DNA from: Sipunculus nudus | Taxonomy: Eukaryota; Annelida; Sipuncula; Golfingiida; Sipunculidae | Reading direction: 5' to 3' | Length of the DNA stretch: 64,000 nt | Assembly (NCBI GenBank): GCA_026874595.1 | Contig: CM049310.1 | Location: forward strand, 90,031,556-90,095,555 | Shown: piece by piece, positions 18,792 to 54,609 of the stretch | How the letters are laid out: every line of letters starts with the position of its first letter | Numbering within the stretch: position 1 is the stretch's first letter | The notes under the pieces: model-generated | The model's input: only the letters and a program-made list of their open reading frames with translations | Database searches by the model: none | What the model was told of the DNA's origin: nothing | Program-made: the position numbers and the translations under genes

Positions 18792-19086
18792 GCTGAGATT
18801 CCCTTGTGAGTTTACTCGGTATCCGACAGCCGGAGCACAGGGGCTTGTCACAGAAGACTGAAAAAATAGTTTCCCGGAATTTTGAGCCGCTGAGATTCCC
18901 TTGTGAGTTTACTCGGTATCCGACAGCCGGAGCAGAGGGGCTTGTCACAGAAGACTTAATGTTATTAAGTAGTCAAGGAGCTGTATATGTCACAATTGAC
19001 TGTATCGCTTATTCTTGAATATTTGCGGCTAAAAATTCCGGGAAATTATTTTTTTCAGTCTTCTGTGACAAGCCCCTGTAAGCCGG
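18792..19086. repeat. Foldback repeat with direct and inverted copies
   Basis: A roughly 70-bp segment starting GCTGAGATTCCCTTGTGAG occurs at 18792 and again at 18889. The segment 18830-18884 (CCGGAGCACAGGGGCTTGTC onward) is present as a near-perfect inverted copy at 19032-19086, with GTCTTCTGTGACAAGCCCCT visible on the plus strand. The arms are about 54 bp and the loop about 150 bp. A foldback or MITE-like origin is inferred. Confidence 0.85.
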
Positions 19087-20170: not shown

Positions 20171-20756
20171 TCAGGATATCATTAAAAACGACCTAGTCCT
20201 TATAGGACAACAATACTTGATATTAACTTTATCTATGACATAATCACCAGAACGAAAATAGGGAGGTAACTGTTTCTGACATGTTGATCTTCTTAATGGT
20301 CTAAGAGGTGATTCTATATTTACTGAAAGGGAAGGAGCGTTATCAGGTGGAGGTATATATACATGAGACTGGACCCAGGGGCCCTCGTTATCACACACCA
20401 TGGAGGTAATAGACTCGTCATCCGATGAGATAACAGTTTCAGCTGCAGATAGTACAGGAACATCATCTTGATGTAAAAGATGGTTCTGAAATAGAAAGAT
20501 TATCATTATTTGTATCATCATTGGACATAGAATGCTCAGAATCAATCATCATGATAATGGCTTCTGAATCACTATCACTATCAGACGACAAACCACTGGA
20601 ATTCTGAGAGTCCGGCACATTTACCTGTTCATTAGTGGTTGGAGGATCAGGAATATAATCAATTGGCAGGATAAGATTACGATCTAGCATACGACTGAAC
20701 GAGGGATTGTCAATAGGAGCGACAACATAAATGGGTATCCCTGCTTTTCGTTGCAT
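20171..20756 (-). pseudogene. Gypsy integrase C-terminal region and tail
   Basis: Two overlapping minus-strand frames. The first (20463-20756) has GIPIYVVAPID followed by LDRNLILPID, the usual end of Gypsy integrases. It then becomes Ser/Asp-rich. The second (20171-20545) contains LRPLRRSTCQKQLPPYF and SGDYVID, a basic tail common at the end of invertebrate Gypsy Pol. The frame change between them is at about 20.5 kb. Confidence 0.7.
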
Positions 20757-20986
20757 TTATACAACATAAACCTGTTCTCACCTATTTATTTGCCAATTTG
20801 TGTTTTCCTGTAAAAACTACATTACTGACTAACACGCGATCACCGATGTCAAGTACGGAGCCATGCGACCGACGGTCGTATAATTTCTTATGACGGTGTT
20901 TGAAGCGGCGGAAGTGCGTTGGGCAATATCGTAAGCCGTCGATAACTGATTTTACAAATCAAAACACGTAAGTTCGGTATGCTTGT

Positions 20987-21867
20987 TCAGTCAGTTCCCA
21001 AAATTAAATCGATCGGGAGTTGAGGATTACGCCCAAAAATTAAGAAATACGGTGAAAACCCGGTAGACTCGTTTTTGCTACAATTGTATGCATGAGTAAG
21101 TGGTCCAGCGTGATCTTTCCAGTTTCTCTTTTGTTCATCCTCCAGGGTATCCAACATATTTAATAGTGTACAATTAAAGCGTTCAACAGGGTTACCCTGG
21201 GCATGGTAAGGAGTCGTAAGAGGTTTCTTTATTCCACAGATGCGACAAAGTTCACGTATCAATAGAGACTCGAACTATCTGCCTTGGTCATTCTGGATTC
21301 TACTAGGAAATCCATAGTGGTTCACAAAGGTATCTAGTAGCATCTTAGCAGTTTGTTTAGCCTTAGTTCTTCGACAGGGAATCGCAAACGCGTATCGAGT
21401 AAAATGGTCCGTCATTACAAAGACAATTTATACCCACCCCTAGAGGGCTCTTTACTAAGAAAATGTATACAAAGTAGCTCAATTAGTCCATTTGAGGATA
21501 GGAAAATTAAAGGAGAAGTATCGGGCAGTGTTTTTCACCGTACACATCGAGGACATTCCCTGACATATTTCTATATATCATGTGTCATCTTTGGACGGAA
21601 AAAAAAACTATCTTGAGCAAGTTGCAATGTACGATTGGGACCAAGATGGCCGACATCATCATAAATACCTGACATGGCAGTTTGTCGACATTGTGAAGGA
21701 ACTGCTATCTGGAATTGTTCTTTCCCATCACAAAGGCGACGACGGTAGAGAATCCCATCCTTTAGAACAAGTGAATCTGAATATTTGAAAAGATAATTCT
21801 CATCTGGTTTGAGGGTGGGATTACTTATCCGGGTACCATCCTTCAGATAAAGAATGAGGTTTTTCAA
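20987..21867 (-). pseudogene. Gypsy integrase (HHCC and core) remnant
   Basis: The right part (21571-21867) carries the zinc-binding segment with LVLKDGILYRR and GHLGPNRTLQLAQDSFFFRP; the CxxC half lies past an in-frame stop. The catalytic core follows in a shifted frame with TDHFTRYAFAIP and NHYGFPSRIQNDQG, then a stop codon right after the second conserved Asp region (at about 21.28 kb). The frame reopens at 21262 with LCRICGIKK and TTPYHAQGNPVERFN, the third catalytic Glu region. The domain order is normal, but at least two stops break it. Confidence 0.85.
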
Positions 21868-22003
21868 CAGGTCATCTTACCATTTTGCAAAGCGTATACC
21901 CTGCGGGTCCTGTAACAAAGATGTAGAAGGGATGTTCATACATAAGACAGTATCAGGTATACATGTTTTGGTGGATATCAAAGCTGGTGTCCCTACATCG
22001 GGG

Positions 22004-22225
22004 TTACATATAGCCTTTACATGGTATATTTTGTCTTTTGCCTCTACCTTTATTTCGAATAGCTCTATGAATTCGCCAGAGCGCGTTGGCATCGAAGTTA
22101 TGCTTTCCTGGGCGATATTGTATGCTGAAGTCATAATTTGCAAGTTCGGCAACCAATGGTTGTCCTTTGGCATCATGCTTTGCTGTGGAGAGAGCATAAG
22201 AAAGGGGGTTATTATATGTAAGCAC
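22004..22225 (-). pseudogene. Gypsy RNase H remnant
   Basis: The frame contains LTYNNPLSYALSTAKHDA, LAN(Y)DFSIQYRPGKHN and DANALWR. These match the C-terminal end of Gypsy RNase H (usual ending RPGKxNxDADALSR). It is continued by degenerate sequence on both sides. No intact RNase H fold is encoded. Confidence 0.8.
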
Positions 22226-22650
22226 AGTGAACTAGGAGCCGTACAGATAGTCTTTGAATTTATCTGTAACGCTCCATTTTAAACCTAGAAACTCTAACTT
22301 GTGCACTGGATATCTAGATTCTGCTGGTGTTAAGCTGCGGCTTACAAAAGCAATAGGTTTCTTCTCCCCATTCTGTTCCTGGTACAAGATACCTGAAGGT
22401 CCACTGAAACATCAATATGCAATATGAAGGACGTAAAAAATCAGCAAAAGCAAGCACAGGAGCTGTGGATAAAGCATCAATCAATGTGTCAACTGCATTT
22501 TGGTGATCAGATGTCCAAATACACGGTTGGGTTGATGAATTCGTTACTCTTGCCTTTGGTCTGCGCTGGTCTCCGTTCAGTAGATAATGGAGAGGTCTAG
22601 CTCAACAGCAACACCTTTTTATAAACTTGCGATAAAAAAACTGTAAATCC

Positions 22651-23460
22651 TTAAAATATACGTACATCCTGGACACAGTGACGTACTGGCCATTCTTTCA
22701 GAACCTGTATTTTGCTAGGATCACTTTTAATGCCTTCTTTTGATACTACGTGAACCAAATACTTGATTTCTTGCTGAAAGAAGTGACATTTAGATGGTTT
22801 TAACTTTAGTCCTGCATCAGAAAGACGCTGAAGGACACAATTTAAGCGGTCCAGGTGTTCATCAAAAGTACAAGACGCTACAATGATATTATAAAGATGT
22901 AACAAAGCGTTCCTTCAGATGAAGATCCTCCATAATCTTCTGCATCAATCGCTGGAATAAGGCAGGCACGTTCATTAATCCGAAAGTCACAGTTTCAAAT
23001 TGATGTAATCCTAATGGACCTACAGTAAAAGTTGTTTTCTCTTTGTCTCCATCTGCAACTTTCACCTGCCTATATCCAGACTTAAAGTCTAAGGATGAAA
23101 ATAACTTTCTACCTCTTAAGGAGTCCAATTCATCATCCATCCTCGGCAGAGTGTGATTATCTTAAATGGTACGGCTGTTCAATTTCCTGTAATCAACACA
23201 TAACCTCAAAGAGTTATTTGGTTTACGTACAAGGAACACAGGACTGGCAAAAGGACTATTGCTCATATTGATGACTTGGGCTTTCAGCATATCTCAAAGA
23301 TGTTCTTTTTACTCATAAAAAAAATTGTGGTGGAATGCGCTTTTATCTTTCTCTGAAAGGTTCATCATTGTTTAATTTAATCTCATGTTTTACCACACTG
23401 GTGCGCCCAAAATCAGTATCGCTGAAAGAGAAAATATGTTTCCATTTGATTAAAAAGCTA
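22651..23460 (-). pseudogene. Gypsy reverse transcriptase, catalytically dead
   Basis: The palm region is clear at 22889-23140: MDDELDSLRGRKLFSSLDF, SGYRQVKV, KTTFTVGPLGLHQFE and FGLMNVPALFQRLMQ. A frameshift follows at about 22.90 kb. The catalytic YxDD box, expected before IIV in this family, reads HLYNIIV, so both aspartates are gone (Tyr and Asn in their place). The thumb continues with TFDEHLDRLNCVLQRL and GLKLKPSKCHFF (22651-22905). The N-terminal entry (KWKHIFSFSDTDFGRT) lies in the frame ending at 23343, with a stop between. Confidence 0.9.
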
Positions 23461-24271
23461 TGCAGCCCTTCCATTTCAGATGATGAAATGTCACTGCCAA
23501 ACTTGAATGAATTAAGGAAATCATCTGCAGCGTCTAAAGCAGCTACTGATGGTGGAGCAACAGTAGCTTTCTGTAAATCACAAAGAATTGTTTTACTCGG
23601 AAAAGTAACATAATAACAAGATAAATTCTGCATAGTAACAATAAATCTGTCATTTCCACCTGATGAAAAATCTACTTCCTGGAGCGATGGATGCATCATA
23701 AATCCTGCAGGTAAGGCATGCATGATGTTTTCTTCAACTACAACTAATACTCTACCCGGCGTATGGGCCCTTGTTAAACCACTAAAAGAGAGTGGCACAA
23801 GGCGAGACCGTTACTGCTTTGGTGGATATAACATGCTTTATGTTTTCTGATATTTTTCTTTTCCAGTGCCTGGATACTCTGAAAAGCAAGTTTCCATGGG
23901 GTTAAAATACGTAACTTCTAAACACACGTGTTTCCCGCCTTGTTCTAAAGCATCTGTAAACAAAAAGCTGAGGAGATTTGCTTCAATTAAGAAAGGAACC
24001 TCATGGTTAAATTCAGTAATCTTCATCACCAGCACTTGAATAGGAAAATTTTTATTGAAGTTTTAAAAATTATGTCAAATGTAACGATCCCAAGATATTC
24101 TATTGATTCACCAACAACATGTAAATTGAGGAGATCTTCTACTCCATTCATATCAGAACTGGAAAAATGTTTCTTACAGAACCATTCTGCAACCGTACTA
24201 ACTTGTGACCCTTTGTCAAGTAAGCCATTGCATGATATGTTATCAGCAATCATTTCCTGTATTGCCAACAA
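23343..24271 (-). pseudogene. Gypsy protease and protease-RT linker
   Basis: The protease fragment (24026-24271) has GLLDKGSQVSTV where a retropepsin should have D-T/S-G. The Asp is kept but the next residue is Lys, which is not seen in active enzymes of this type. The following frames (23838-24035 and 23343-23798) carry the linker seen in invertebrate Gypsy Pol (for example TRAHTPGRVLVVVEEN) leading into the start of the reverse transcriptase. The frame is broken at about 24.03 and 23.82 kb. Confidence 0.75.
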
Positions 24272-28696: not shown

Positions 28697-28875
28697 TCGA
28701 ATGAAATGAATAAACGGCTGCTGAAGGGAATATCCGCATGGTGCCATCTGTCGGTAAAGCAGTGTACTGCCTGCGCTTTGCCCTTTGTGCTTCAAAGACA
28801 GAGGCGAAAGTCCCTCACTCTGCCTTGGGCGTCATCACGAAAATATCGTCTACATTATTAGAGAAATTAATATAA
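28697..28875 (+). pseudogene. Decayed copy of terminal decarboxylase exon
   Basis: This region is homologous to the last exon of the decarboxylase gene at 54403-54609. Nucleotides from TCGAATG to CTGCTGAAG align with exon 12. A deletion of 16 bp then shifts the frame. After it the protein reads MVPSVGKAVYCLRFALC, then ASKTEAKV and ALGVITKISSTLLEKLI, followed by a stop close to the true gene's stop. The intact gene has [16 protein letters not shown] and [19 protein letters not shown]. The shared PSVGK wording, different from fly and human enzymes as I know them, points to a local duplication. No other exon of an upstream paralogue was found, so it appears to be an isolated, frameshifted relic. 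Confidence 0.88.
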
Positions 28876-38509: not shown

Positions 38510-38741
38510 CCGATTTTCGTCCCTAGAACAGCTGGAGAAAATGGATGCAGAGGAATTCCGCAAACGAGGCAAAGAGATGGTGGATTACGTTGCGGACTAC
38601 CTGGAGAACATCAGGGATCGCCCAGTACTTCCTGCGGTTCAGCCAGGATACTTACACGGAATGATCCCTGACCACGCCCCGGAAGTACCCGAGCGCTGGG
38701 AGGATCTGATGGCGGACGTAGAACGGGTCATAATGCCGGGG
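38510..38741 (+). CDS. DDC: DDC coding exon 1 (residues 1-67)
   Basis: Acceptor TTTTTTTCTAG, 31 nt of 5' UTR, ATG at 38541, donor GGG|GTACGT, end phase 0. It encodes the N-terminal helical segment that swaps between subunits ([20 protein letters not shown], then [10 protein letters not shown] and VERVIMPG). Confidence 0.95.
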
Positions 38742-41211
38742 GTACGTCCAAGTCGACAATGATAATAAACAAACGAGCATCATGAATTCACAAAGTACTT
38801 ATGACCCCCACTTAGTATGAATGCATTCATTTTTTTTTACGGCAGGGTACTTATACCATTGTTCTTTTTTTAATATTTGTACTATGTTATATTCAATTAA
38901 CTCATCGTTTATCTCAAGAGTTCAGTAATTTGGGTCCTACAGATATCAATGGTAACTTTATATATAGTTCAGTTGATAACCTCTATACAGTTATCAGTAT
39001 TGGATCCAACACTGTATTTTTGACTGTTAAATGCATGTAAAGGAAATCATCATTTTTTTATTGCTTCGTTTTGAGGTTCATGGCTTAGTAATTACATGAC
39101 AAAAAAAGTAAAACCTTTTAGTGTGATATATTGAAGACTAGTGATCTTTTGATAGTTTATTGTTTCATCAGCTTTATATTAATATAATTAATAACTTTAT
39201 ATTAATATTAATATAAGTCAGTATCTAAATGCTTATAAATTTTTTCTAAACGCATTCAGTAATAATTCATATTTATATGTATATTGATCGTATGTCCATG
39301 TTCGCACACTTTTTCTTACTCCTTCTTTGAAGATCACTCACTGGCAGCACCCTCACTTTCATGCCTATTTTCCGGCACTGCCGTCTTTTCCCGCCATGTG
39401 TGCAGACCTACTCTCCGACGCTATCGGCTGCATCGGCTTTACTTGGGTATATATTAGTTTTTTCACTCTTCATTTTATTTTTATTTATATAATTTATTTA
39501 TTTATTACCTATTACTGACTATCTTCAGAATACTGTGCCCGATCTTCAATACATTTAAAAGGTAACACTTTTTTTTTAGAAAAGACTTTTTTATCCTTTT
39601 TCATGCTTTTCGAGGGGTTAATTTTAAATTATACTATTTTCTGAAATCATCATCTTTTAGTGGTGATTGTAGGCTGTTAACAAACAGACAAACTCTCTCA
39701 ATATTTCATAAAGGTGGCATAATATAACTAGACACAAAACTGCAAATGTTACGCATGAAGCTTACTTATAACTATCACATAATACGGTACATAAAATGCG
39801 CAGTTTGGCATTGATTTTTATTTTCACAAACTTTATTCAGACAATTTGATACATTTGCTTGTAAGACTTTATACTTTTCCGCCCATAAAATCCAGAGTGG
39901 CAGCATCGTAATATTAATATGCCATACATGATCATATCCCCAGTCCTCGGATAAGCGTTTCCCTACAGATACGGAGACTTGCTGGCAACTAAGTTTTGCC
40001 TGCATCCGTCTCTTTATTAAGTTGGGACCATTGCAACTAGCCAAAAGACTTGCCTGAGAGCCATTGGGTAGGGTCTTTGTCATTGTCCCGCTAATATAAG
40101 CAAGCAAGTCTGATCGACCCCCCTCTGACCTATAGGGCAGTTAATGGGCGTGTTAATGGGTTAGTCCACTTGAATGAAAGGGTAAGGGTAGATCTATGGA
40201 CTATCCATCAATATAATTTTCTTGGAAAATTGACAAATCTGAATCACGTAAGTGACAGCATTTGGACCACATTGACTATATAATGGCAGCATTAACAGAA
40301 CAATGTACCAGTTTGCTTTATGCATACAGACACATAGCAGCTTGGAGCGACACCCAGTGATTCGGACTGTCAATATTTCATAAAGTTTATATAGTAATGA
40401 AAGCCTCGATATGGATTCTCATTGACGAAGGACATTCGCGTTTTAAGACTTAATGTCAACCAGGGGTGGCTAAGACCAGTCGATTAATCCGTGCAGTTCT
40501 CAAAACCAAGCTATTCAACTTTTCTGTGAAATTTATGTGATATATGGCTAACTCTCAAGTAATGAACTGTAGTTTATGAACAAGTGGATATGAACATCAC
40601 GATCAGCCTGTGTGCGTTGGCATTTGCATATTCTGGTGTATTTTTTATATCAATGGTTGAAATGATTATCTTTTGTTTTGGACGTCAGCTATTTGAATTG
40701 GACCTTAAGGAATAATATCAAAATTCCCCATATATATGTTATATAAAAAAAGAAATCTACCTGAAAGGTGAAACTATCAGGTGCTGGTCGGCGGTTTCTC
40801 ATAATTACTTCCGCAACTAACTCTTGTCGTCGGCAACTCTCCGTACTAGCTTTGACTACAATTATTTTCTTTGCTACTAGTCGGTCACGAACTTCCTCCA
40901 AGTTCTGTTTTTTTTATCAAAGTAGCGCTTAATACAGGCCTGCCACATCACTCCTTTTAAAAAGAGTAAATTTATTTAAGATTTACCCATTTTGATGTTA
41001 CTTAATCTTTTTTCTCTCTTATATTTAACTCCAGCAGTTTTTTTTTCCTTCGTTTTTTATTAGTGTAAAAGTTCTCTTATGCTTAAATAGTCCAGTTAGA
41101 ACAAAATGCCCAGCATGTATCACAACATTTTGAAAATACCGTCTTCAGACATGGCATTTGGACCATTCATGTTTCTGACTATGGGAGTTATATGTAAATA
41201 AATAAAATAAA

Positions 41212-41287
<76 letters not shown>

Positions 41288-41670
41288 CAATCGATTCATT
41301 TTTTCCCGGCGTATTATCAATCTCTAATTTGATTTATATCATTTAGTGCACATCAGAGGATACCGACTATATTTGTTGTAGCGATTGTCCATGCAAGCAA
41401 ACAATACATTTAGGGCGTATAATTAATTAAGTAAAAGTGATAAACCAACGCCTCGAAGGCTGGTTTCGACTTTTATTCAAAGGCCGTTTTTAGATTTGTT
41501 AAGCTTTAGTTTAAGTTTCTCTTGATTGTTGTTAGTTTTGATAGCTGTGATTCAAGCACCTATAGACTGTCATAGGTAGTGGTGTAGCCGGGAAGGGGTG
41601 CCGGGGATGGAGATGGCTGCAAGCATACTTGCTGGGAAAACGGTGCGCGCGCGGATATATATATATATAT

Positions 41671-41741
<71 letters not shown>

Positions 41742-44700
41742 GCGTCATTTTCTCCAGGGTTTTCGTTGTCTCATGGCAAATTCAGAAATAAAAGTCCCTG
41801 GGTTAGATCTCTTTTATGTACAAAATCTCTCAGGTAAATGTGTACAGTAATGGAACTTTACGTGAACATACTTATATTTTCATGTTATGAAAATTATGTT
41901 AACACCATAAATTCTTAGCAGAAACTGGGAACGTGTAAAGTTTATCCTTATAATTACAAGCATAGTCGGATTGGCTTGGAAGGGCCCGCGGCACCCACAT
42001 GGCTACGCCATTGAAAGTCTTTCTCTTCATCTTTCCGGATAACCTCAAATCTTCCGGATAACCTCATTGTTTCCTGATACCTCAACTTTTTCCGGAATAC
42101 CTCATCTCTTTCCGATCAGCCTCAATCCTATCCGGATACCCTCAACTCTGCACACATTTATCCGTGTACCCTCAACTGTGCACATGAGACATTTTTGAGA
42201 GGTTGATTCCAGGTGACTCACTGGCACAGCCCGCAGTTTCACGCTTACTTTCCGACAGCTAACTCATATCCAGCCATCTGTGCCGACATACTGTCTGATG
42301 CCATTGGCTGTATCGGATTCTCCTGGGTAAGACAATAAATAAAAAGATCATACGAGTAGTTGCATCTACTATTGGTGATATTTACTTGTTTGGCGTGAGT
42401 TACATAAATTAAAGCAGGATACTGTGAAAAGATTTTGACGAAACACTGAGGAAAACGTCTGCAATTGAAAATACCGGATCCGCCTAGATCCACATCAAAA
42501 TCCAATCGCATAAACACTGTCTCATGTCCCATCTTTTATAAAGTTACATCGACATGCGTTCGTTAATTTTTTTGCGTAATCGCATTAACAGAAAAAAAAA
42601 TCTGCATAGATGCACAAAAAATTCTGTGAGATAATCACGGTCTCATGCCGCATCTTTCATATAGTTACGCAGATAATTCGTGTGTTATTTTTTGGCGTGA
42701 TACTTTTATCAGGAAAACAAATCAGCCAACAGATACGGATGAAACTTAACCTCCTTTGCGAAGACGATTAATCAAAATATGAAAATCCGTGCAATAAGAG
42801 TTTCTTCACCGTTGTTATTTACCGAGGCAAATGTTAGATATGTTAAGCAATAAACGCCTCTTATACCCACTGTCTGTTCTAGCTTGAATTATTTTTATTC
42901 TACAAACTGCTTCAACAAACCACTTGAAAGAAAATTGTTGTGGGTTCTGCTTGTGATCCATGCAGACAGTAGCCGTATAAACGCCTGCTTCTAGTTCTAG
43001 AAGGTATTGTAAAAAAACGGCGGTATAATAGCCAGTATTCAAACTCCTAATTAAGAAAGCAGCCTTATCGAGGAAAATATATAAAAAAGACACATGGATA
43101 TTGTCACGCAAGAGGTCCATGATCTAAGTGACGTCATTCTATCCGCCCAGGAAGACTTTACCCAGCCTGTCTTGCGCTACATTCACGGAGGCATGGCATA
43201 AACCCTTTCATCATCGTCCCACAATATACCGCGCGAAACAACAATAGAGCCACGTGTCAGGAATGTTTACACGTGTTGGACTGCTCGCTTCGAAACACCG
43301 TCATTTACACTGGTCAATTGGTGTTAAGTTTACGAAAAAGCTAATCCCTGTTATGCAGTGCTTAAAAAAATTGTTTTAATGGGTTTCTGAATGGTTTCTT
43401 AACAAATAAGCACATTATTTTAAATGCAGTTTCTACACTAGCAAAAACGTCAGGACGCGGGGTATTGTATGGAACTGTAAAGTGACAAAATAACCCATGT
43501 CTGAGTTTGAGTAATTTACTGCATTGACATGAAAAATCTTTGTGCCAAACGATTATGATATGCTGCGCTTTTGAGTATGTTTAATTTGACACCGAGATGC
43601 GTGTATAAATGCTATATCGACCCGGCACACACCAGGATAAACTTGTTACAACATATTAGGTGTACATGTCTCTGAGGAGTGTCTCTGAAGACAGGTCTAT
43701 GATCAAAATTTATGAATTATGGCATTTGTTTTTCATATGGACGAAAATACAGTGATACTTCATTAAAAATTTTCCAACAGATCAGCTGGATTTGTTCACT
43801 TCACAAGTTCTCAGTGTAGTCAAGGGAGTCAACATGCAGACAGACCATTCAATAATACTCTCATGAAAAAAAAACAGTTATTTAACTCTCTTGATAACTT
43901 CGTAAATTATCTTTGAGAAGTTCTATCATATCCATGCAGGAGGGCTCACATGAGTATATTGTGGGACGATGATTTCAGGGCTTGTGCCATGCTCCGAGAG
44001 CGGAGCGCGAGGCAGCCTAGGAACCTTGAAAATCAGGCTTTCGCTAAATCTCTGCGTCTCACCTGTATCTAAATTATGAAATGTGTTCAATATAATTAAT
44101 TGTGGATTCTATTTAGGTAGCAATTGATATATATCTAGACGTTTCAGAATACAGTTGAAATAATAGAGAAGAGATTGATTTACCAAGCACAGGTAATCGG
44201 AATAATATATTAGCACACTTATGGTCAGTAACGTTTATAGGAGATTTGAAGGTATGACATAACCCAATACAATTATATTGCAGTTTAATTTATCACTTTA
44301 AGTTTTTTAAGTGGTGAAACATAGCATAGAGTTATTAATATTGTTTCTTGAAACAAGAATAATCCAGTACGGCTAGTGTTTCGCCTTTTATACGACCCTT
44401 CGGCATAAGGAAGGCTAAAAAATTATTATATACTAACTGTAAGTATTAATCAATTTCTTAATGTTTCAGTAACATTACATTTTTTTCTTATCTGTTTTTA
44501 TAACAAGTACAACATATTTTTAGGAATTGTACTTTCTAAATGATATATCTATAAACGTAGATATCCAGCCCGGCGTGTACTGAACTCGAGGTTGTGATGA
44601 TGGACTGGCTGGGCAAGATGTTAAATCTACCGCAGGAGTTCTTGTCAGGAGGCAAAGGAGGTGGAGTCATACAGGTCAGTGAGACAAAGGAGGGGGAGTC

Positions 44701-47700
44701 ATACAGGTCAGTGAGACGAAGGAGGTGGAGTCATACAGGTCAGTGAGGCAAAGGAGGTGGAGTCATACAGGTCAGTGAGACAAAGGAGGTGGAGTCATAC
44801 AGGTCAGTGAGACAAAGGAGGTGGAGTCATACAGGTCAGTGAGGCAAAGGAGGTGGAGTCATACAGGTCTGTGAGGCAAAGGAGGTGGAGTCATAAAGGT
44901 CAGCGAGGCAAAGGAGGTGGAGTCATACAGGTCAGCGAGGCAAAGTAGGTGGAGTCATACAGGTCAGCGAGGCAAAGGAGGTGGAGTCATACAGGTCAGT
45001 GAGGCAAAGGAGGTGGATTCATACAGGTCAGTGAGGCAAAGGAGGTGGAGTCATACAGGTCAGTGAGGCAAAGGAGGTGGAGTCATACAGGTCAGTGAGG
45101 CAAAGGAGGTGGAGTCATACAGGTCAGTGTGGCAAAGGAGGTGGAGTCATACAGGTCAGTGAGGCAAAGGAGGTGGAGTCATACAGGTCAGTGAGACAAA
45201 GGAGGTGGGATCATACAGGTCAGTGAGGCAAAGGAGGTGGAGTCATACAGGTCAGTGAGGCAAAGGAGGTGGAGTCATACAGGTCAGTGAGGCAAAGGAG
45301 GTGGGGTCATACAGGTCAGCGAGGCAAAGGAAGTGGGGTCATACAGGTCAGCGAGGCAAAGGAGGTGGAGTCATACAGGTCAGCGAGGCAAAGGAGGTGG
45401 AGTCATACAGGTCAGCGAGGCAAAGGAGGTGGAGTCATACAGGTCAGTGTGGCAAAGGAGGTGGAGTCATACAGGTCAGTGAGGCAAAGGAGGTGGAGTC
45501 ATACAGGTCAGTGAGAAAAAGGAGGTGGGATCATACAGGTCAGTGAGGCAAAGGAGGTGGAGTCATACAGGTCAGTGTGGCAAAGGAGGTGGAGTCATAC
45601 GGGTCAGTGAGGCAAAGGAGGTGGGGTCATACAGGTCAGCGAGGCAAAGGAAGTGGGGTCATACAGGTCAGCGAGGCAAAGGAGGTGGAGTCATACAGGT
45701 CAGTGAGGCAAAGGAGGTGGAGTCATACAGGTCAGTGAGCCAAAGGAGGTGGAGTCATACAGGTCAGTGAGGCAAAGGAGGTGGAGTCATACAGGTCAGT
45801 GAGGCAAAGGAGGTGGAGTCATACAGGTCAGTGAGACAAAGGAGGTGGAGTCATACAGGTCAGTGAGGCAAAGGAGGTGGAGTCATACAGGTCAGTGAGA
45901 CAAAGGAGGTGGAGTCATACAGGTCAATGAGACAAAGGAGGTGGAGTCATACAGGTCAGTGAGGCAAAGGAGGTGGAGTCATACAGGTCAGTGAGGCAAA
46001 GGAGGTGGAGTCATACAGGTCAGTGAGGCAAAGGAGGTGGAGTCATACAGGTCAGTGAGGCAAAGGAGGTGGAGTCATACAGGTCAGTGAGGCAAAGGAG
46101 GTGGAGTCATACAGGTCAGTGAGGCAAAGGAGGTGGAGTCATACAGGTCAGTGAGGCAAAATAGGTGGAGTCATACAGGTCAGTGAGGCAAAGGAGGTGG
46201 AGTCATACAGGTCAGTGAGGCAAAGGAGGTGGAGTCATACAGGTCAGTGAGGCAAAGGAGGTGGAGTCATACAGGTCAGTGAGGCAAAGGAGGTGGAGTC
46301 ATACAGGTCAGTGAGGCAAAGGAGGTGGAGTCATACAGGTCAGTGAGGCAAAGGAGGTGGAGTCATACAGGTCAGTGAGGCAAAGGAGGTGGAGTCATAC
46401 AGGTCAGTGAAGCAAAGGAGGTGGAGTCATACAGGTCAGTGAGGCAAAGGAGGTGGAGTCATACAGGTCAGTGAGGCAAAGGAGGTGGAGTCATACAGGT
46501 CAGTGAGGCAAAGGAGGTGGAGTCATACAGGTCAGTGAGGCAAAGGAGGTGGAGTCATACAGGTTGATTTTCAGGTATCATTGAGAGCAGCTCTCCGAAT
46601 AATTAAATTCACATTGGATGTCACTTTCTTTTCAGGCTGTTTTTTACTTCCTGACCAAACGGTGCTCTGTATATGTACTTAAAGATTAACACAAGAATTT
46701 ATTTTGCATATTTACTAGATGACTATACTAAAAATGTGTTCTGTATATTTACTAAATGGCTAACATAAGAATATGATCTGTATATTTACTAAATGACTAA
46801 CATATAAGAATGTGTTCTTTAATTTTACTAAATGGCTAACATTTTCTTAAACTTTTTTTCTTAGAGCTGCACATCAATGCGATAAATACAAAAAATTGGC
46901 ATCTTAATATTAAATGTGCATACATCGTTTCCTTAACATATCATGCCAATCTTTAAAGGGAACAGCGAGTGAAGCTACTCTTGTAGCTATGCTGGGCGCC
47001 AGAAGCCGGGTGCTGCGCGAGAAACGGGAAGAACTCAAGACAGACGAAGATTCAGATATCATGGGCAAGCTCGTAGCATACTGCTCTGACCAGGTACTTA
47101 ATACTGATTACATAATGCTGTGACCTGGGCATTTTTTATGTTTCTGTTTAAATTAAAAAAGGATGCAAACTGAACATGTATCTATTCCGATCCCAAAGCG
47201 TCAACAGTTAATGTCTTTTGATTTTATTGATCTTAATCAAATATTCCAGATTCACAAAAAAATATTAAATTAACAATAAAATTAAAATGAACATGTCCTG
47301 CATGTTTTACAATGCCGCTATCGTTGCCAGCCTAGGCATCGTTCCTGGGCTCCCCTGTGGTGTAACCAACTCCGGTTTTTCTTCTTATTAATACACAGAG
47401 AATATGTTCATCTTCCTTGAAAAAAGTATGGAACGAAACCACGAAAAGTACAGTCCGTTGCCCGTCTTCTTTGAACAATTAACCGTGCTACTAGTGGTGT
47501 ACAAAACTATTTTCTTTAAGTAATCTTAGAGATGGTGGTCAAATGTTTTGACCGATAATCTGTCAGCTATGCTTCTACCGCAGCGGTTACACACTGTAGT
47601 CGTCTCAGACATTCTTTCGTGTAACCGCTGCTTTGTGTTGCAAGGTTCTCTGGGCATGAACACCAGGGTGCACACACAGCACAGAATTGTTATCACACCA

Positions 47701-50700
47701 CTGAAAGCGTGGTATTTCATTTTGTATCAAGCCTAAATTATAAACATGGGACAGCCGCTCTCGCAGGTCAGATAACACATAACCTGGCATAGGACCGACA
47801 ATAAAATCAATGAGATCATGTGTCCCGGTATAATCAAACTAGCTAAAGTTTCCCAGTGCTTTGATTTTAAGGGATCTGAACCAAGTAGATGTTGGGCTTT
47901 TACATGTTAAAATGTATCTATAACCTTTGCCGATGGTCAAATATTTATTCGCTGAAAATGATACTTCCGCCAATTATAACTGTAACTGTGTATAATTATC
48001 TGCAGGCGCACTCTTCAGTGGAACGAGCTGGTCTGTTGGCGGCGGTGAAAATCCACAAAGTTGAGAGCGATGAATACTGCTGTATGCGAGGGGACGCGCT
48101 GGCCGACGCAATAAACCAAGACAAACAACGAGGGCTCATACCATTCTATGTAGGATTTCCGATGCTTATTTTGTCCCGATTTTATAAAACAATGTATTTC
48201 ATTATGCAATATTTAAATTCAGTGGCGGATCCAGAGGGGAGCGCCCGGGGCTCGCGGCCTCTCCCTGTTGAGCTGAAACAATCCTCATTTAATCTCTTTC
48301 TTTTCCCTTTATTCTTCATCAATTTTCATTTTTTGTTAAGATTTCCATTTTATTCCCTTGCAATAAGATGATTAAGTTATATACTGTTTATTACCGTCCA
48401 TTTCATAAGTTGAGGATATTAATGAACAGCTTTACTCAAATAAAGGTAGCATCCAAGTATTTCTATAACACGGGAAGGTGGCTTTCCTTTATTACCGAGG
48501 AACCCTTAAATTACATTCGCAAAATTAACAGAATAGTAGTTGAGGAACAGAACCTTATATTTTATGTGACAGGTGCCTCAGAAGTCCTCCTAACATTGCA
48601 TATCACAAATTTTCCAGTATATATATGTATATTAACTAAACAAAAGTTTGAGAATTTAGATATAATGATAAACATCAACAACCAACCCAATGTTCTCGAA
48701 ATTCTGGATCCGCCGTGTTTAATTGATATATAAATTTTATTACTATTTTTACCACTATAATTACTGTATCAAATTGTTGTATTGATTTCGCAAACCAAAT
48801 CCAAGTAGTAAATATGAACAAGATTATCACAAAGCAATATGACATAGGCCTAATAAGACTCCTTTTAGAAAAAGAAACATTAACTTGACGGAGAACATTA
48901 CTACGGTATTTTTTTAATTAACCACTATATCCACATACCTTGCATTAAATTAAAATATATATTTACTACGTGTAAAAGCATATTTATCAATTGTTTTATT
49001 AAAGATTTCATCATTAAGAGGTAACCATATTTGTTCAGTTGTGATATTCTATACCTGCATACTATTTACACGTTTCTTCTTCTTTGATAATCAGGATATT
49101 GATGAATTTTGAATAGTCAGGAATATGCCCATGACGTTAAGTAAATTAAAAAAACAGACCAGTTTCTTAGCAGATAATGATTTTTATTTTTATTTCTATT
49201 CTGCAGGCTGTTGCCACATTAGGTACTACGCCTTCCTGTGCCTTTGATAAACTTCAAGAGATAGGACCTGTATGTAAGTAAATATGCCGATACCGGCTGT
49301 ATTAAACACTTTAATGTATACAACTGAAATCAAATGAACTCAATGTATTAATTGTCATCTTCCCATATTAAACGACCTCATGCCTTCGTGAACTCAACTC
49401 AACCTGTGTATTTGTGCAAAAGAACAGCAGTCTAATTAAATTGATAGGACCAGCCTAAGGGCAAAAATAATAAAATTGTTCTGCGGGATGCGACTTTTTA
49501 TAAATCAGATTTTGTGTTATTCAGCACCAAACCTCTGTATTATTGGTGCATATGATAGGTGCTACAATTGTATAAAATCAAACAGTTCATGGTAAAATGA
49601 AATAATTGATATAATATTATTAAGTTATATAATATAATATGAAAACGCACCGCCACCAATTAATTATGACCCAATATAGGTGGAACAACGCTTATGTTTT
49701 GGAGTAATGATGGGTTTTTATTTTTCATTTTAGTGATGCCATTAGTAAGAGGTTTAAAGTCCGAACATCATTGTTGATACCATATATTTTCCCGCTATCA
49801 ATAAAAGTGTAAGCAATGGATCGAGGGTGAATAAGTTAATATTAAGTGTTACCCTGAAAACCGGAAATAACGGCCGTTGTGGGCGTTTGCTATTTCAGTG
49901 AGGTCAATGTTTCCTGCTTTCCTTACAGGTAATAGAGAAAATGTGTGGCTACATGTAGACGCCGCTTATGCCGGGTCCGCCTTCATTTGTCCCGAATTTA
50001 GACCGCTGCTTGATGGTGTTGAGGTATCTATGGTTAATGCGTATACGAATTCAACCTGTCATTACTATGGTTGTGAAGACACAACTCGGTATTAAGTCAA
50101 TACATGTATATCATTTTCGATAGAAAGACACCTTTGACGCTTACATATAGTATTCCACTGACATATAGGGAATGTGAAGTAAAACGTCACAGGTCGTAAA
50201 CGAAAGAATTTCAATTATTTTTAGTATTATTTTTCGGGCCGATGATAGATTCTCCATTTAATGTATGCATATGTGAACAAAAGGAGATAGCTCCTAAAAC
50301 CTAAAACTAAAATCTGGTCGTATGTTCTTATCTGAGTTGAGTTTTACAATTAAGACAAACATATATATATTTAGATTCTAAAGATTAATTTTGGGTTTAA
50401 TAGATGGGTGTCCCTTTTATCCATTATTAATTTGTATTTGCTTAATTTGATATCATTATACCCTTTCTCTTTCATATTATTAAATGATGACTTCTGCTTT
50501 AAAGCTTGCAGACTCCTTTAACTTCAACCCCCACAAGTGGATGCTGGTAAACTTTGATTGCTCCGCCATGTGGTAAGTATATTTTCCGTATTTACATTTT
50601 TTGCCTCTGCCAGGAGAGTATGCGCGTTAATCCCCGTCCATGTTTGTGTGTGTGTTTTGTGTCTTAAGTGTGTGTTTGTTCAAATCACGTTATCTTGAAC

Positions 50701-51412
50701 GGAATCGCATGAGCTTTTTCGGACATTTCGGGAATGGGTCAAAGAATAATCGATTAGACTTTCGTATGGATCCGTTTTATAACCTAGATTCAGGACGCCA
50801 TTAGGGAATATTCATAAATACAGTCACTTGTGCACGGATGAACCTGGGAATATGGGCAAAAAAGTAATGAATGGCCACATGGTAGAGGCTTGAGTGCCAG
50901 TGCAGATTTCTAGTTATAAAGGGTTTCCACCTAAGGTACTATTCAGTGCCTAATTAAAGAATATGTGTAGGAAATTAATTGCAGAACCTCGTTATGTATC
51001 TAGAGGGGTTAACTTAAACCTAAGCTATGCAAATGACCGAGTTGTATCCATTTTTTAAGGATTGGTCAATGTCCTACTGGTAGCACGGTTTACTGAATGT
51101 GTCTCAGAGGTTCTAATAAGATTTTAGTGTGTTTTTGGTACTCCTTAATCATAATCCGACTCCCTCTCAGAGTAATCCCTGATATCTTCAAAGAACATAA
51201 ATAAATTAATTAAAATATCAATTACATGTATATCATATTAAATTAATTAATATACTCACACAGGGTTAAAGACTCCTCTCAGATTGTGGACGCCTTCAAT
51301 GTTGACCCGCTGTATTTAAAACATGATCACCAGGGCCACGCCCCGGACTACAGGGTAAGCATGAAACGATAATACGCACACACAAACACGCACATCAGGA
51401 CCAGAAAAAAAT

Positions 51413-51566: not shown

Positions 51567-54500
51567 TATACGCAAATGTGTATATTGTATATTATATACA
51601 CATTTATAATATATACACGCGTGCAAGTATATAGATGACAGAATATTTATTCCGGTTTTATAAAGTTTTCATATTAAATACTATTTTGAAAATATTAAAA
51701 GACAAAATACCACTGTACAATTCATTTGTATGTAATATGCATTCATCAGACAGTACTAGTACGTTTTCTACGATTAAAATGTAAGTTGCATAGATTAGCC
51801 AGGTTTGTTAAATGATGGTTCTTGCTTTCTTTTGGTTCCATATAATAATCCTGGAAGTTCGGGCTGTTTAACGATCCTCACGCAGCGACTATACACTGCA
51901 GGCGTCCCAGATCTTCTTTTGTTTTAACCGCTGCTTTGGATAGCAAGATTCTCTAGGTTCGACCGCCAGGGTGGGCACTAAGCAAAGACGTGTAATCAGA
52001 CCACTGAAAGCATGGTATTGAATTGTGCAACCTTTAATATGCGACACCTGCTGTCGTTGGTCTGACTGCACAGGTTATGGCTCAGGGCCATGCATATTCT
52101 TTGCTCCGTGCCCACCCTGGTGGTGTAACCGGGAAAATCTTGCCATTAAAAGCAGCAGTTTAACCTACACCATATATTAAAATGTCGGGCTTTTCTTTTG
52201 CAGCACTGGCAGATCCCGCTTGGAAGACGTTTCCGTTCACTAAAACTCTGGTTTGTTCTCCGTCTGTACGGAGTGCAAGGAATACAGGCACACCTCAGAA
52301 AGGTGATGAAGCAGCCTCACACGCTGCGATCCTTTCTACGATTTTATACGCCTGTCTTTTGCCGTATCCGCAGTAGCTAATAATCCAGATCGTGAGTCGG
52401 TATAATCTTTCCGCACTAAGTCACTACTCCGCATCAGTTCAGTTAACCATAGTCTGCTTGAAGGGCGGAGTACAGGAGTCCGGTTCACTTTAGTCCGGTA
52501 TAAATTAAACCGGTTTCTAGTGCGTACAAAAAAATCCACGCCTAGTCCGAATGAGTCCAGTTTCAGTGAACGGCCCTTGCCCCCACCCTTGATGCTGCAC
52601 TTGATTGCGTTGCCTGAATCGGATTACGAACCAAGTGCGGACTGCAAACTTACAAAGTTTTGAATAAATGGATTTAGGCTAAGGCTTTTGTTAATTGAAC
52701 TACAGTGCGGACACAAACCGGTTTATTATAATCCGGTTTACATGCGAACTAAGTGCGGATACGGCCTATGACGGGACGTATTTTGGTAAACCCACGGTCC
52801 GTCTCTCCGCCCTTGACATTTAGTTTTACCGAAATAACTTAGATGGATTATCTCGCGCGAGTTCGATAATGAGCAAAATCAACTTATATTTAATAAGGCC
52901 AGAGGTCACTGCTACTTTATGGTGTCGCCGCCGTGATGATTTACCAAAAATCTTATGGATTCTCATGAAACTCGTTAAGATAATAAACCAAAACAATTTC
53001 ACATCTGTATCGTATTCTCAGTAAAATACACGCACATTCAATTAGGTTGGAGGTCACAAGATGTGTGACGCTCGGATTTTGCACCATTTGCGATGTTCGG
53101 TGCTCTTTTTATTAATTCCTATAGTTGAATTTGGTACTATTTGGTGTTATATTCTGTAAACTTAGTGAGCAACTGTAGTAAGAATCCTCATGTCCAAACA
53201 ATCACTTTAAGTATAATAATTGTCAAACTGCCTTGGTTCAATTGAGCTCTAAAATACATAGTAAATCATGTACCTAATGTAATCCCCTGAATATCTTTTA
53301 TAGATCAGCTGAATAATAAAAAAATACAGGTTTTCTTGTTGGCTGAAGATTTTGAACATTTTCATTTTTCTTAGAAAAAAACGCATTATATCTTGCCTCT
53401 GGCAATACGCATGCATTCAACAAGAACATTATCCAAAAACATTATCATACAAACATATCCAAGCTTTGTTTTCATTAAATATATATCTTCGATCTGTATT
53501 CTTAAATTTGAATCAGAAATCAATTGACAAATTGACCAAAAAAGTGTAATAAATATGGCTGGATACTGCTTCATAAAACAGGATAAAAAACATGAAAATT
53601 ACGCATTTTCGAGTATATGTTTTAGGTAGGTGTGTGCAAAGGTGGAAAGCTACATTTGTAATAATTTGTTAAAAATATCTTGTTAAAGATTACATGGGTA
53701 GATGGTGGAAAGCTACCCACCTTCTACGAATCAATATTAAAAAAGAAATTAGTTATGATCGAATTATGCGTTAGGCTTATTCTTATTCGGCTACTTATAG
53801 CTAGGACAATGCTTTGTTGGAATCTCAGCTGAATGCATTTTCCTTTCACGCCGTGTGTTGTATTTGTTTTTAGCAAATTGCGCTGGCGAAAGAATTTGAA
53901 GCCCTAGTAAAGGCGGATGACAGGTTTGAGGTTACAAATGACGTCATCATGGGGTTAGTCTGCTTCAGATTAAAGGTGGGTTGTCATATTTAAAGAACTC
54001 ACCAATTTCGACCGAATGTGTAAAGTAATACGCATCACGTTTGCTCAATTCTTGTTCCTTATATTAATATTTTTTTTTATATTTGTATTGACACTTGAAT
54101 TTTTGTGGGGTTAAATACTCACAAAAAAATTGTTAAAGATATCTACAAGATTCAGGATTTGATTAATCTATTTTATTCACACAAATGAATTTTTTTAGTG
54201 GTTTAATTAAATTTGAATAAGGAGTTTAAAACTGGAATCTAAATTCACTCAGTATGGCAACCACTATATTGGGACTCAGTCTGTGCATTAACGTGTCTTT
54301 TGATTAGAGAATGTGCATGCATTAAACTAAATTTAACTTCCGACTGCATAACGTTTCCAGTTTTAACCTCCTTAATCTTAGCATACGTGACACTGATTTC
54401 AGAATAATTCAAATGGAGTCAATGAGCGGTTACTGAAGAAAATAAATGAAGACGCCAGGATACATCTAGTGCCATCTGTCGGAAAAGGCGTGTACTACCT

Positions 54501-54609
54501 GAGATTTGTAGTTTGTTCTGCAAAGACAGAATCCAAGGATATTGAATTTTCATGGGGTGTAATCAAAGAGTTATCGGGCACAGTGCTCGGAGAATCTAGT
54601 GCAGCTTAA
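38541..54609 (+). CDS. DDC: Aromatic-L-amino-acid (DOPA) decarboxylase, 12 coding exons
   Basis: A PLP enzyme that decarboxylates DOPA/5-HTP-type amino acids to monoamines in the cytosol. Coding exons: 38541-38741, 39333-39446 or 42213-42326 (alternatives), 44561-44674, 46959-47093, 48006-48149, 49207-49273, 49929-50023, 50505-50572, 51264-51354, 52204-52302, 53874-53975, 54403-54609. All junctions are GT-AG and in phase, giving 478 residues with either alternative exon (human enzyme 480). H190 (PLP stacking), D269 (pyridine N), K301 in NPHKW (Schiff base) and Y330 in the mobile loop are all present. G350 in PLGRRFR matches DOPA decarboxylases; histidine decarboxylase has Ser there. The start [10 protein letters not shown] fits the family. 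Sequence wording is closest to insect and vertebrate DDC, as far as I can judge by eye. Odd points are the duplicated exon 2 and the splice-site minisatellite after exon 3. Confidence 0.96.
39333..39446 (+). CDS. DDC: DDC alternative exon 2a (residues 68-105)
   Basis: 114 nt, phase 0-0. The acceptor is strong (CTTTTTCTTACTCCTTCTTTGAAG); the donor is weaker (TTGG|GTATAT). It encodes [20 protein letters not shown] then [18 protein letters not shown]. Compared with exon 2b it differs at 11 of 38 residues. These include Ala82 in place of Thr82 and Gln72-His73 in place of His-Ser. The [14 protein letters not shown] wording is nearer to histidine and tyrosine decarboxylases than to DOPA decarboxylases. 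The frame is fully open with mostly conservative changes, so it looks functional, not decayed. Confidence 0.9.
39447..42030. other. Intron between alternative exons, with (TA)n tracts
   Basis: Holds (TA)n(TAA)n at 41214-41288 and (TA)n at 41654-41738. No further exon copy was seen. Confidence 0.7.
42031..42183. repeat. Short tandem repeat just upstream of exon 2b
   Basis: About six degenerate units of TTTCCGGATAACCTCAA type (TCCGGATAACCTCA, TTCCTGATACCTCAA, TCCGGAATACCTCA, TCCGGATACCCTCAA, TCCGTGTACCCTCAA). It ends 30 bp before the exon 2b acceptor and overlaps where its branch point and pyrimidine tract would be expected. Confidence 0.8.
42213..42326 (+). CDS. DDC: DDC alternative exon 2b (residues 68-105)
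   Basis: 114 nt, phase 0-0. The acceptor is weak (GAGAGGTTGATTCCAG, few pyrimidines); the donor is strong (TCCTGG|GTAAGA). It encodes [20 protein letters not shown] then [18 protein letters not shown], the classical DOPA decarboxylase wording with Thr82. It is presumably the exon of the standard enzyme. Length and phase are identical to exon 2a, so either exon alone restores the full fold, while using both would duplicate 38 residues in frame. Confidence 0.93.
44561..44674 (+). CDS. DDC: DDC exon 3 (residues 106-143)
   Basis: Acceptor ATAAACGTAG, donor ATACAG|GTCAGTGAG, phase 0-0, 114 nt. It encodes [20 protein letters not shown] then [18 protein letters not shown]. The last 24 coding bases are the first unit of the minisatellite that follows. 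The start is fixed by the need for W|ISSPACTE; an AG 6 nt later would break the frame. Confidence 0.93.
44651..46564 (+). repeat. 32-bp minisatellite built from the exon 3 splice donor
   Basis: About 60 tandem units, each with GGCAAAGGAGGTGGAGTC, then ATACAG|GTCAGTGA. The first unit is the genuine end of exon 3 (codons GKGGGVIQ) with its 5' splice site. All later units lie in the intron but repeat the same exon end and donor. Variants are minor (GTCAGCGAGG, GTCAGTGTGG, GTGGGGTC). Because 32 is not a multiple of 3, read-through cycles through all frames and meets TGA within three consensus units. Confidence 0.97.
46959..47093 (+). CDS. DDC: DDC exon 4 (residues 144-188)
   Basis: Acceptor ATCTTTAAAG, donor ACCAG|GTACTT, phase 0-0. 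It encodes [20 protein letters not shown] and [12 protein letters not shown], the PLP phosphate-binding loop region (SEA). Confidence 0.95.
47578..47795 (+). mobile_element. Foldback MITE family, copy 2 (DDC intron 4)
   Basis: Shares GTAACCGCTGCTTTG, GGTTCTCTGGGC, CACCAGGGTG, CACTGAAAGCGTGGTATT and a trailing AACCTGG with the copy at 51882. Only the left arm is obvious. Confidence 0.65.
48006..48149 (+). CDS. DDC: DDC exon 5 (residues 189-236)
   Basis: Acceptor TATCTGCAG, donor TTCTAT|GTAGGA (weak), phase 0-0. It starts [21 protein letters not shown]190 stacks on the cofactor ring in this family. It ends RGLIPFY. Confidence 0.94.
48221..48717. mobile_element. hAT-like MITE in DDC intron 5
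   Basis: Starts CAGTGGCGGATCCAG and ends CTGGATCCGCCGTG, an inverted pair typical of hAT-type ends. Flanks TTTAAATT and TTTAATTG are a plausible imperfect 8-bp target duplication. About 0.5 kb, no transposase; the 121-residue ORF inside is not recognised. Confidence 0.7.
49207..49273 (+). CDS. DDC: DDC exon 6 (residues 237-259)
   Basis: Acceptor TATTCTGCAG, donor GTAT|GTAAGT, ends in phase 1. It encodes [20 protein letters not shown] with T244 in the position of human T246; the split codon completes as Cys. Confidence 0.94.
49929..50023 (+). CDS. DDC: DDC exon 7 (residues 259-290)
   Basis: Acceptor TTTCCTTACAG, donor GTTGAG|GTATCT. It encodes [20 protein letters not shown] and [12 protein letters not shown]269 in HVDAAYAG binds the pyridine nitrogen. 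Confidence 0.95.
50505..50572 (+). CDS. DDC: DDC exon 8 (residues 291-313)
   Basis: Acceptor CTGCTTTAAAG, donor ATGTG|GTAAGT, ends in phase 2. It encodes [21 protein letters not shown]301 is the Schiff-base lysine. Confidence 0.95.
51264..51354 (+). CDS. DDC: DDC exon 9 (residues 313-343)
   Basis: Acceptor CTCACACAG, donor TACAGG|GTAAGC. It encodes [20 protein letters not shown] and [11 protein letters not shown]330 on the flexible loop is the catalytic Tyr; Phe at this site would mark an aldehyde synthase, so this is a true decarboxylase. Followed by (TA)n at 51414-51471 and 51531-51565. Confidence 0.95.
51882..52167. mobile_element. Foldback MITE family, copy 3 (DDC intron 9)
   Basis: The most complete copy. 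Left arm GCTGCTTTGGATAGCAAGAT to CCAGGGTGGGCAC is matched in inverse by GTGCCCACCCTGGTGG to ATCTTGCCATTAAAAGCAGC, arms about 50 bp. It ends 36 bp before the exon 10 acceptor, so it could affect splicing. Confidence 0.8.
52204..52302 (+). CDS. DDC: DDC exon 10 (residues 344-376)
   Basis: Acceptor TTTCTTTTGCAG, donor AGAAAG|GTGATG, phase 0-0. It encodes [20 protein letters not shown] and [14 protein letters not shown]350 matches DOPA decarboxylases. Confidence 0.95.
52361..52771. mobile_element. MITE-like element in DDC intron 10
   Basis: Ends GCCGTATCCGCA and TGCGGATACGGC are inverted copies, 410 bp apart. Inside, AATCCGGTTTACATGCG-type segments occur in opposite orientations (TCCGGTATAAATTAAACCGG left; AACCGGTTTATTATAATCCGG-like right). 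No coding. Confidence 0.65.
53874..53975 (+). CDS. DDC: DDC exon 11 (residues 377-410)
   Basis: Acceptor TTGTTTTTAG, donor TTAAAG|GTGGGT, phase 0-0. It encodes [20 protein letters not shown] and [14 protein letters not shown]. Confidence 0.94.
54403..54609 (+). CDS. DDC: DDC exon 12 (residues 411-478, stop)
   Basis: Acceptor CACTGATTTCAG. It encodes [36 protein letters not shown], and ends [19 protein letters not shown] then TAA. A decayed copy lies at 28697-28875. Confidence 0.95.
   Translation, partial: NNSNGVNERLLKKINEDARIHLVPSVGKGVYYLRFVVCSAKTESKDIEFSWGVIKELSGTVLGESSAA

Follow-up and report, generated by a model that had tools for sequence, protein, structure and literature searches.

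The stretch of DNA analysed here (64,000 nucleotides, hereafter the window) corresponds to C5:90031556-90095555 of the Sipunculus nudus genome, in an assembly of 1.43 Gb and 153 contigs, and its forward strand carries one complete gene for DOPA (3,4-dihydroxyphenylalanine) decarboxylase (DDC), with coding exons 1 to 12 and with exon 2 present in two versions, designated 2a and 2b. Either version, spliced in the model together with the other 11 exons, yields a protein of 478 amino acids with zero internal stops. In window positions, used throughout unless a contig is named, and all on the forward strand, coding exon 1 (38541..38741, from the gene model and alignment to Protein Data Bank structures) extends from Met1 to Gly67 and ends in phase 0; it is followed by alternative exon 2a (39333..39446; reading frame, paralog alignment, selection and residue counts), which encodes residues 68-105 with Gln72, His73 and Ala82, and by alternative exon 2b (42213..42326; reading frame and residue counts), which encodes the same residues in their canonical DDC form, with Thr82. 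The gene model continues with exon 3 (44561..44674, 38 amino acids), exon 4 (46959..47093), exon 5 (48006..48149), exon 6 (49207..49273), exon 7 (49929..50023, with the DDC His192 motif), exon 8 (50505..50572, with NPHKW and the pyridoxal phosphate (PLP) lysine), exon 9 (51264..51354, with the catalytic-loop motif PDYR, its Tyr present), exon 10 (52204..52302, with Gly where histidine decarboxylase (HDC) has Ser), exon 11 (53874..53975) and exon 12, which includes the stop codon (54403..54609).

As expected of an active animal DDC (also termed AADC, aromatic amino acid decarboxylase), a group II PLP decarboxylase, the 478-residue model bears the equivalents of the PLP lysine, His192 and the catalytic-loop Tyr, and contains PDYRHWQI; the roles that we assign to the PLP lysine, the catalytic-loop Tyr and the Gly354 position in this protein are assumed. 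Exons 1, 2b and 3 (143 amino acids) aligned end to end with the solved structures 3k40 (E 6e-73), which we take to be Drosophila DDC, and pig DDC 1js3 (E 4e-66), and since these alignments are gapless up to residue 105, the numbers 68-105 used here are those of the pig enzyme. In a quick tree of 29 hand-chosen rows, isoform B (the protein with 2b) fell in a DDC group of 25 rows, within a six-row clade together with Capitella and Helobdella (Shimodaira-Hasegawa-like approximate likelihood ratio test, 99), which makes an annelid origin probable, and the four tyrosine decarboxylase (TDC) rows were separate; the closest protein among the 120 matches listed of 7,998 was 73% identical to the window DDC, so that none of the listed proteins comes from this species. 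Functional roles of His192 and Thr82 have been described for DDC (PMC6411801).

Exons 2a and 2b are both 114 nucleotides (nt) long, open, flanked by AG and GT and of phase 0-0, and encode the same 38 residues. Coordinates and translations agree with the original prediction, made from the sequence alone, of two such exons for residues 68-105 differing at 11 of 38 positions, and the gene model agrees with the end of exon 1 (38741) and the start of exon 3 (44561) that it had placed. The other 27 residues are identical, as are 81 of the 114 nucleotides. Stop-free frames of 114 nt account for 373 of 5,477 (7%) in these introns, which, together with the 27/38 match to 2b and the purifying selection described below, argues that 2a is more than a product of chance. 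The exon carries the TDC marks Gln72, His73 and Ala82 on a DDC backbone. Exon 2a is very likely a selected coding exon, and the simplest reading would make it a mutually exclusive alternative to 2b.

A search of the genome with 2a returned 26 matches, comprising 13 exons of the 2b type (in the window gene, eight others on contig C5, two on C1 and two on C16), 10 of the 2a type or traces thereof, one TDC-like exon on C15 and one HDC-like exon on C4, both genes being recognised from exon 2 alone, and one match on C11 that was assigned to none of these types. The weakest 2a traces, C16a (E 0.24) and P304 (E 0.64), find support in matches at the nucleotide level (E 5e-27 and 6e-26, respectively), and a separate search added a further C16 trace (E 0.004) lying within a 952-nt alignment to the window gene. 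Counting the window gene, a 2a exon or trace is present in 11 of the 13 paralogs; none was found in P371 or P892 by sequence searches and alignment to the window gene. Ten of the 11 copies are disabled, only the window gene combining an AG acceptor and a GT donor with an uninterrupted frame, and 2b is open with AG/GT flanks in all 13 paralogs. Among the relics, P148 and P227 carry a 1-nt deletion and a TGA at the Trp71 codon, with the acceptor AG intact; P192 and P275 have a TGA, a lost acceptor AG and a GC donor; P336 has no stop, with the acceptor lost, a GC donor and Trp71 changed to Leu; P304 shows a TGA, a lost acceptor and a truncation; C1a and C1b have a TAA and a 1-nt deletion; and C16a and C16b are truncated at about one common point.

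In a tree of the paralogs based on exons 1, 2b and 3 (C1 without exon 3) and rooted on P892 by assumption, the other 11 paralogs form a group that excludes the window gene (support 88), and hence the 2a/2b pair would be older than that radiation; C16 is placed beside P148 (85). This tree, if correct, implies repeated loss of 2a, although the Trp71 stop could instead be a single shared event. Two pairs of paralogs are near-identical (C5:90141581-90148691 with 90220854-90227973, and 90189041-90192245 with 90272226-90275423), and their spacings of ~79 and 83 kb point to recent block duplication.

Exon 2a of the window gene is held by purifying selection. Compared with four relic clades, the window branch of 2a carries eight changes, at nucleotides 30, 36, 48, 72, 78, 99, 108 and 111 of the exon, all eight synonymous and none a replacement; the P304 and C16 relics were legible over the first 36-47 nt only, and the window base is shared by P275 at nucleotide 36 and by C1b at nucleotide 108. 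Dropping one relic clade in turn gave silent:replacement counts of 8:1, 8:0, 9:1 and 8:1, thus adding one replacement at most. With a synonymous fraction of 0.22-0.29 expected at random, eight silent changes of eight have a probability under neutrality of P = 6e-6 to 6e-5, and were obtained in 0 to 1 of 20,000 neutral simulations. Lineage-specific replacement:silent counts in the relics were 14:5 for P148, 6:1 for P192 and 9:1 for C1a (29:7 for the three lineages), and 4:1 for P336 and 9:0 for C1b, where the changes are partly common with those of P192 and C1a. A Fisher test separates the window branch (8 silent, 0 replacement) from the relics (10 silent, 38 replacement) with p = 3e-5, the relic counts, which are partly interdependent, being the changes of P148, P192 and C1a from the reconstructed ancestor. 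The window 2b carries the base of the relics at five of the eight sites (30, 36, 99, 108 and 111), an indication that these changes happened on the window side; at nucleotide 78 the window 2b has the window 2a base, at nucleotide 30 it is the 2b of P892 that does, and 48 and 72 are uninformative. A dN/dS (ratio of replacement to silent rates) near 1 for 2a had been proposed as the observation that would speak against the exon; run on paralogs instead of species, the comparison gave 8 silent and 0 replacement changes and left the prediction standing. Exon 2a is thus constrained at the protein level by this 8:0 count, and 2b is judged to be so from its open AG/GT state in 13 of 13 paralogs.

The bodies of five of the 12 other paralogs were examined up to exon 10 or beyond. 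The catalytic-loop PDYR of the window gene is replaced by VDIR in four nearby C5 paralogs (C5:90148578-90156765, 90192132-90199705, 90227860-90236071 and 90275310-90282863) and by RDFR in P892 (C5:89232591-89239971), so that Tyr has become Ile or Phe, and the last exon of P148 is interrupted by a stop. Residue 82 of 2b is Ala or Val in the four VDIR paralogs, Thr in P892, and Ile, Asn, Ala or Glu in the other seven. Among the six bodies examined, window gene included, the full DDC set is found only in the window gene. Judging from these residues, the five examined paralogs are probably no longer plain decarboxylases, and those with VDIR or RDFR are possibly oxidative or aldehyde-forming relatives.

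Residues at the pocket were counted in two lists made with no motif filter and having two proteins in common, namely the 120 listed matches to the window protein (of 7,998, mostly DDC) and the 120 listed matches to Capitella TDC (of 8,000, mostly TDC). Gln72 with His73 occurs in 117/120 TDC-search vs 1/120 DDC-search rows, Ala or Ser at position 82 in 115/120 vs 8/120 (Ala alone, 71 vs 7), and Gly83-Asn84 in 111/120 vs 10/120, and a mild lean towards TDC is seen for Ile68 (30/120 vs 12/120) and Phe86 (41/120 vs 18/120). Isoform A (the protein with 2a) carries Gln72-His73 and, at position 82, Ala, and has Leu-Pro in place of Gly83-Asn84; the Leu83-Pro84 state is found in 0 of 240 rows (0/120 in each list). 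Further, Ala82-Leu83, Phe86 and Thr104 of 2a are identical in the HDC-like exon of the same genome, and its second half is DDC-like (43/57 nt identical to 2b, 39/57 to the same-genome TDC-like exon). HDC has Ser at the position of Gly354, and the window DDC has Gly there, so that isoform A lacks this HDC mark. The proposal that 2a is closer to TDC or HDC stands for Gln72, His73 and Ala82, which are TDC marks; Leu83-Pro84, absent from all 240 rows, lends no support to a switch to tyrosine or histidine.

In the pig enzyme, Thr82 touches the catechol 4-hydroxyl, and the equivalent residue in Drosophila is Ser in Tdc1 and Ala in Tdc2 (PMC6411801). The T82A mutant of Drosophila DDC is described in the same source with a rise of the Michaelis constant (Km) from 2.2 to 5.6 mM for DOPA and from 0.4 to 3.5 mM for 5-hydroxytryptophan (5-HTP) (PMC6411801), and these T82A kinetics rule out tyrosine specificity from Ala82 alone. 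That 2a would alter the affinity for DOPA and 5-HTP is well grounded; an altered substrate preference of isoform A is likely, from the residue identities together with the T82A kinetics; and tyrosine as a new substrate, which would have to come from the whole 38-residue swap, is speculative. Accordingly, of the changed substrate preference originally predicted, the part that concerns affinity is upheld by the T82A Km values, and a switch to tyrosine or histidine is not, given a T82A enzyme without tyrosine activity and a DDC-type body with Gly at the HDC Ser position.

Splice sites were scored with a position matrix built on 33 donor and 29 acceptor sites from the window gene and four paralogs, a small set in which two paralogs are near-copies of the other two. 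On this matrix, the scores for 2a are 10.4 at the acceptor (training median 10.3) and 1.3 at the donor (training minimum 5.7), and those for 2b are -1.4 at the acceptor (training minimum 4.4) and 8.2 at the donor (training median 8.6), in line with the complementary strengths that had been claimed. Directly 5' of the weak 2b acceptor, a repeat search revealed ~6 copies of a 19-20 bp repeat resembling TTTCCGGATAACCTCAA (42030..42149, forward strand); similar repeats of ~20 bp are also found upstream of 2b in several paralogs, and the array is a possible candidate regulatory element. We infer the mutual exclusivity of 2a and 2b from the symmetry of the exons and the need to keep the fold.

With the integration of these findings, we consider it probable that the one intact DDC gene gives rise to two decarboxylase isoforms through the choice of 2a or 2b. 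Isoform B would be an ordinary DOPA/5-HTP decarboxylase. Isoform A would combine the same catalytic machinery with a remodelled pocket (Thr82 to Ala, Gln72-His73, Leu83-Pro84 and Phe86), which would bind DOPA, and especially 5-HTP, more weakly, and would thereby prefer another substrate or amine balance. The 2a/2b pair would be older than most of the family expansion, after which the duplicates would have lost 2a, and those examined would have changed pocket and catalytic-loop residues, with both exons kept by the window gene.

A number of results weigh against this two-isoform reading. Neither T82A nor T82S conferred tyrosine activity on Drosophila DDC (PMC6411801). Ile68 and Phe86 of 2a are not the majority residues of TDC, and neither Leu83 nor Pro84 occurs in any of the 120 listed proteins of 144 matching the 2a segment, so that these proteins gave no sign of a 2a-type exon outside this species. 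The 2b acceptors of the four scored paralogs, in which 2a is dead, are also weak (4.0, 4.0, -0.2 and -0.2); the weak-acceptor half of the complementary pattern is therefore inherited and gives no evidence of present regulation. Weak 2b acceptors in these paralogs, which rule out the weak acceptor as proof of regulation, are perhaps the leftover of an ancestral exon choice. As to the mechanism of exclusivity, steric exclusion was rejected, the distance of 2,766 nt between 2a and 2b being too great, and so was enforcement by reading frame or nonsense-mediated decay: both exons are multiples of three and their joint inclusion (228 nt) stays in frame, and thus exclusivity is not imposed by the frame. 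Intron pairing of the docking/selector type was discarded as well, no convincing pairing being seen from 38742 to 44560 among the 25 inverted repeats shown of 148, which are AT microsatellites and offer nothing usable. Moreover, because the root may lie on the window branch, some of the silent changes, and with them some of the selection signal, may be older than the separation from the relics, whose ancestor would then have carried them before the loss.

Several alternatives have to be weighed against the choice between two isoforms. Exon 2a may be a non-functional duplicate, open by chance and similar to the copies in the paralogs, as the disabling lesions in 10 of 11 2a exons or traces, a 2a donor below every training donor and an expectation that 2a stays stop-free after 8 neutral changes in 74-81% of cases would have it; we hold this to be very improbable, given a window branch with eight silent changes and no replacement (neutral P 6e-6 to 6e-5) and a combination of AG, GT and full open frame seen in the window copy only, of 11. 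Use of 2a without exclusivity, either with occasional inclusion of both exons or through a promoter of its own within intron 1 (591 nt), agrees with the in-frame joint inclusion of 2a and 2b (228 nt) and with the weak 2a donor; however, a duplicated 38-residue pocket segment would be unlikely to fold, and 2a, which follows a normal acceptor, opens in phase 0 with an Ile codon; we regard this form of use as quite unlikely. Concerning the origin of the exon, gene conversion or exon capture out of a TDC gene, rather than duplication of 2b, is suggested by the 79/114 nt and 27/38 residues that 2a shares with the same-genome TDC-like exon, nearly equal to its match with 2b (81 nt, 27 residues). This origin is not favoured and appears unlikely, as the second half of 2a keeps the DDC-lineage CAD(L/I) segment (43/57 vs 2b, 39/57 vs TDC) and Leu83-Pro84 occurs in 0/120 TDC-search rows.

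The alternative that deserves most attention accepts that 2a is spliced in and proposes that isoform A has no new substrate, acting instead as a low-affinity or regulatory subunit, for instance one that favours dopamine and uses 5-HTP poorly, or one that dampens its partner in heterodimers. The T82A rise in Km is larger for 5-HTP (0.4 to 3.5 mM) than for DOPA (2.2 to 5.6 mM), and the mutant has no tyrosine activity (PMC6411801); in addition, the genome has separate TDC-like (C15) and HDC-like (C4) genes, so that a further TDC is not obviously needed. Conversely, Gln72, His73 and Ala82 shift jointly towards the TDC state, which goes beyond Thr82 alone, and kinetics for the whole 2a swap were not found in the literature. 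We give this explanation appreciable weight, although less than an even chance.

Within the two-isoform reading, an ancestral scenario may be put forward tentatively, with more doubt than confidence: the ancestral annelid DDC would have alternated by splicing between DOPA/5-HTP decarboxylation (2b) and a TDC-like phenolamine decarboxylation (2a), and the duplicates, once freed from the pair, would have given up 2a, gone through repeated changes at residues 82-84 of 2b and acquired, five times or more, a different catalytic loop, the splice switch being kept only by the window gene.

Related arrangements are known. In human DDC, skipping of exon 3, a 38-residue unit, gives an isoform 2 of 442 rather than 480 amino acids (PMC7697000); the likeness lies in a 38-residue exon treated alternatively, and the difference is that the human protein loses these residues by skipping, whereas here a second homologous exon would substitute for them. 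The human skipped unit has the size of exon 2, and hence this segment is probably the natural alternative unit of the family. From its size and the exon structure of the human gene, human exon 3 is presumably the same segment as exon 2 here. Furthermore, coq-2 has mutually exclusive exons 6a/6e that switch substrate, in helminths, annelids and molluscs (PMC7434440); there too, two homologous exons of equal length reshape the core of an enzyme, but the enzyme is a different one, and in that case RNA sequencing documented the splicing, and removal of an exon the function (PMC7434440). TDC itself, as in Drosophila Tdc1/Tdc2, shares with 2a Gln72-His73 (117/120 TDC-search rows) and Ala/Ser82 (115/120), and differs in Gly-Asn (111/120) vs the Leu83-Pro84 of 2a, which also has a DDC-type second half and a location in a DDC gene, the TDC-like gene on C15 being separate. 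In Caenorhabditis elegans, the AADC gene bas-1 has a 27-bp alternative microexon (PMC514703), likewise an alternative coding exon of an AADC gene, but a surface insertion instead of a pocket swap (PMC514703). No published case of a pocket-exon swap in DDC, TDC or HDC was found in the titles and abstract openings of the open-access literature, in agreement with the original prediction, which knew of none in the family.

DDC is usually seen as the broad, unregulated final step of dopamine and serotonin synthesis; if the two-isoform reading is true, a splice switch in the pocket lets one gene change the amine made by a cell. In addition, 2a, 2b and the paralog variants at residues 82-84 constitute a natural set of 38-residue pocket swaps, which bears on what separates DOPA, 5-HTP and tyrosine decarboxylases, a matter to which single mutants of the T82A type gave no answer.

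The junction of exon 3 and intron 3 is occupied by a 32-bp minisatellite (44644..46564, forward strand, repeat search) of ~60 copies, each consisting of the end of exon 3 and its CAG/GTCAGT donor site; the array grew out of this junction, multiplying the donor, and includes 54 CAGGTCAG. In the paralogs, ~52 loosely matching units are present in P892 and 6-8 in P148, P192, P227 and P275, and a rough tally came to 3 units for P371 and to 0 for P304 or P336 (106-464 bases covered there, the first unit with an indel). Elsewhere in the assembly, intronless COX1-type genes were found on C60, C61, C62, C66, C72, C74, C75, C89 and C131, the last of which also carries a decarboxylase gene; these contigs are bacterial in look and may represent symbionts or assembly contamination. 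Upstream of the DDC gene, a lone match to DDC exon 12 (28723-28860, 50% identity) is apparently the remnant of another copy. On the reverse strand, open reading frames resembling pieces of a retrotransposon polyprotein were recognised by eye at 20171-23810, and two overlapping open reading frames at 18115-18811 contain a near-identical segment with SVRPSFRPSVLSFFRPSV, which constitutes a tandem duplication.

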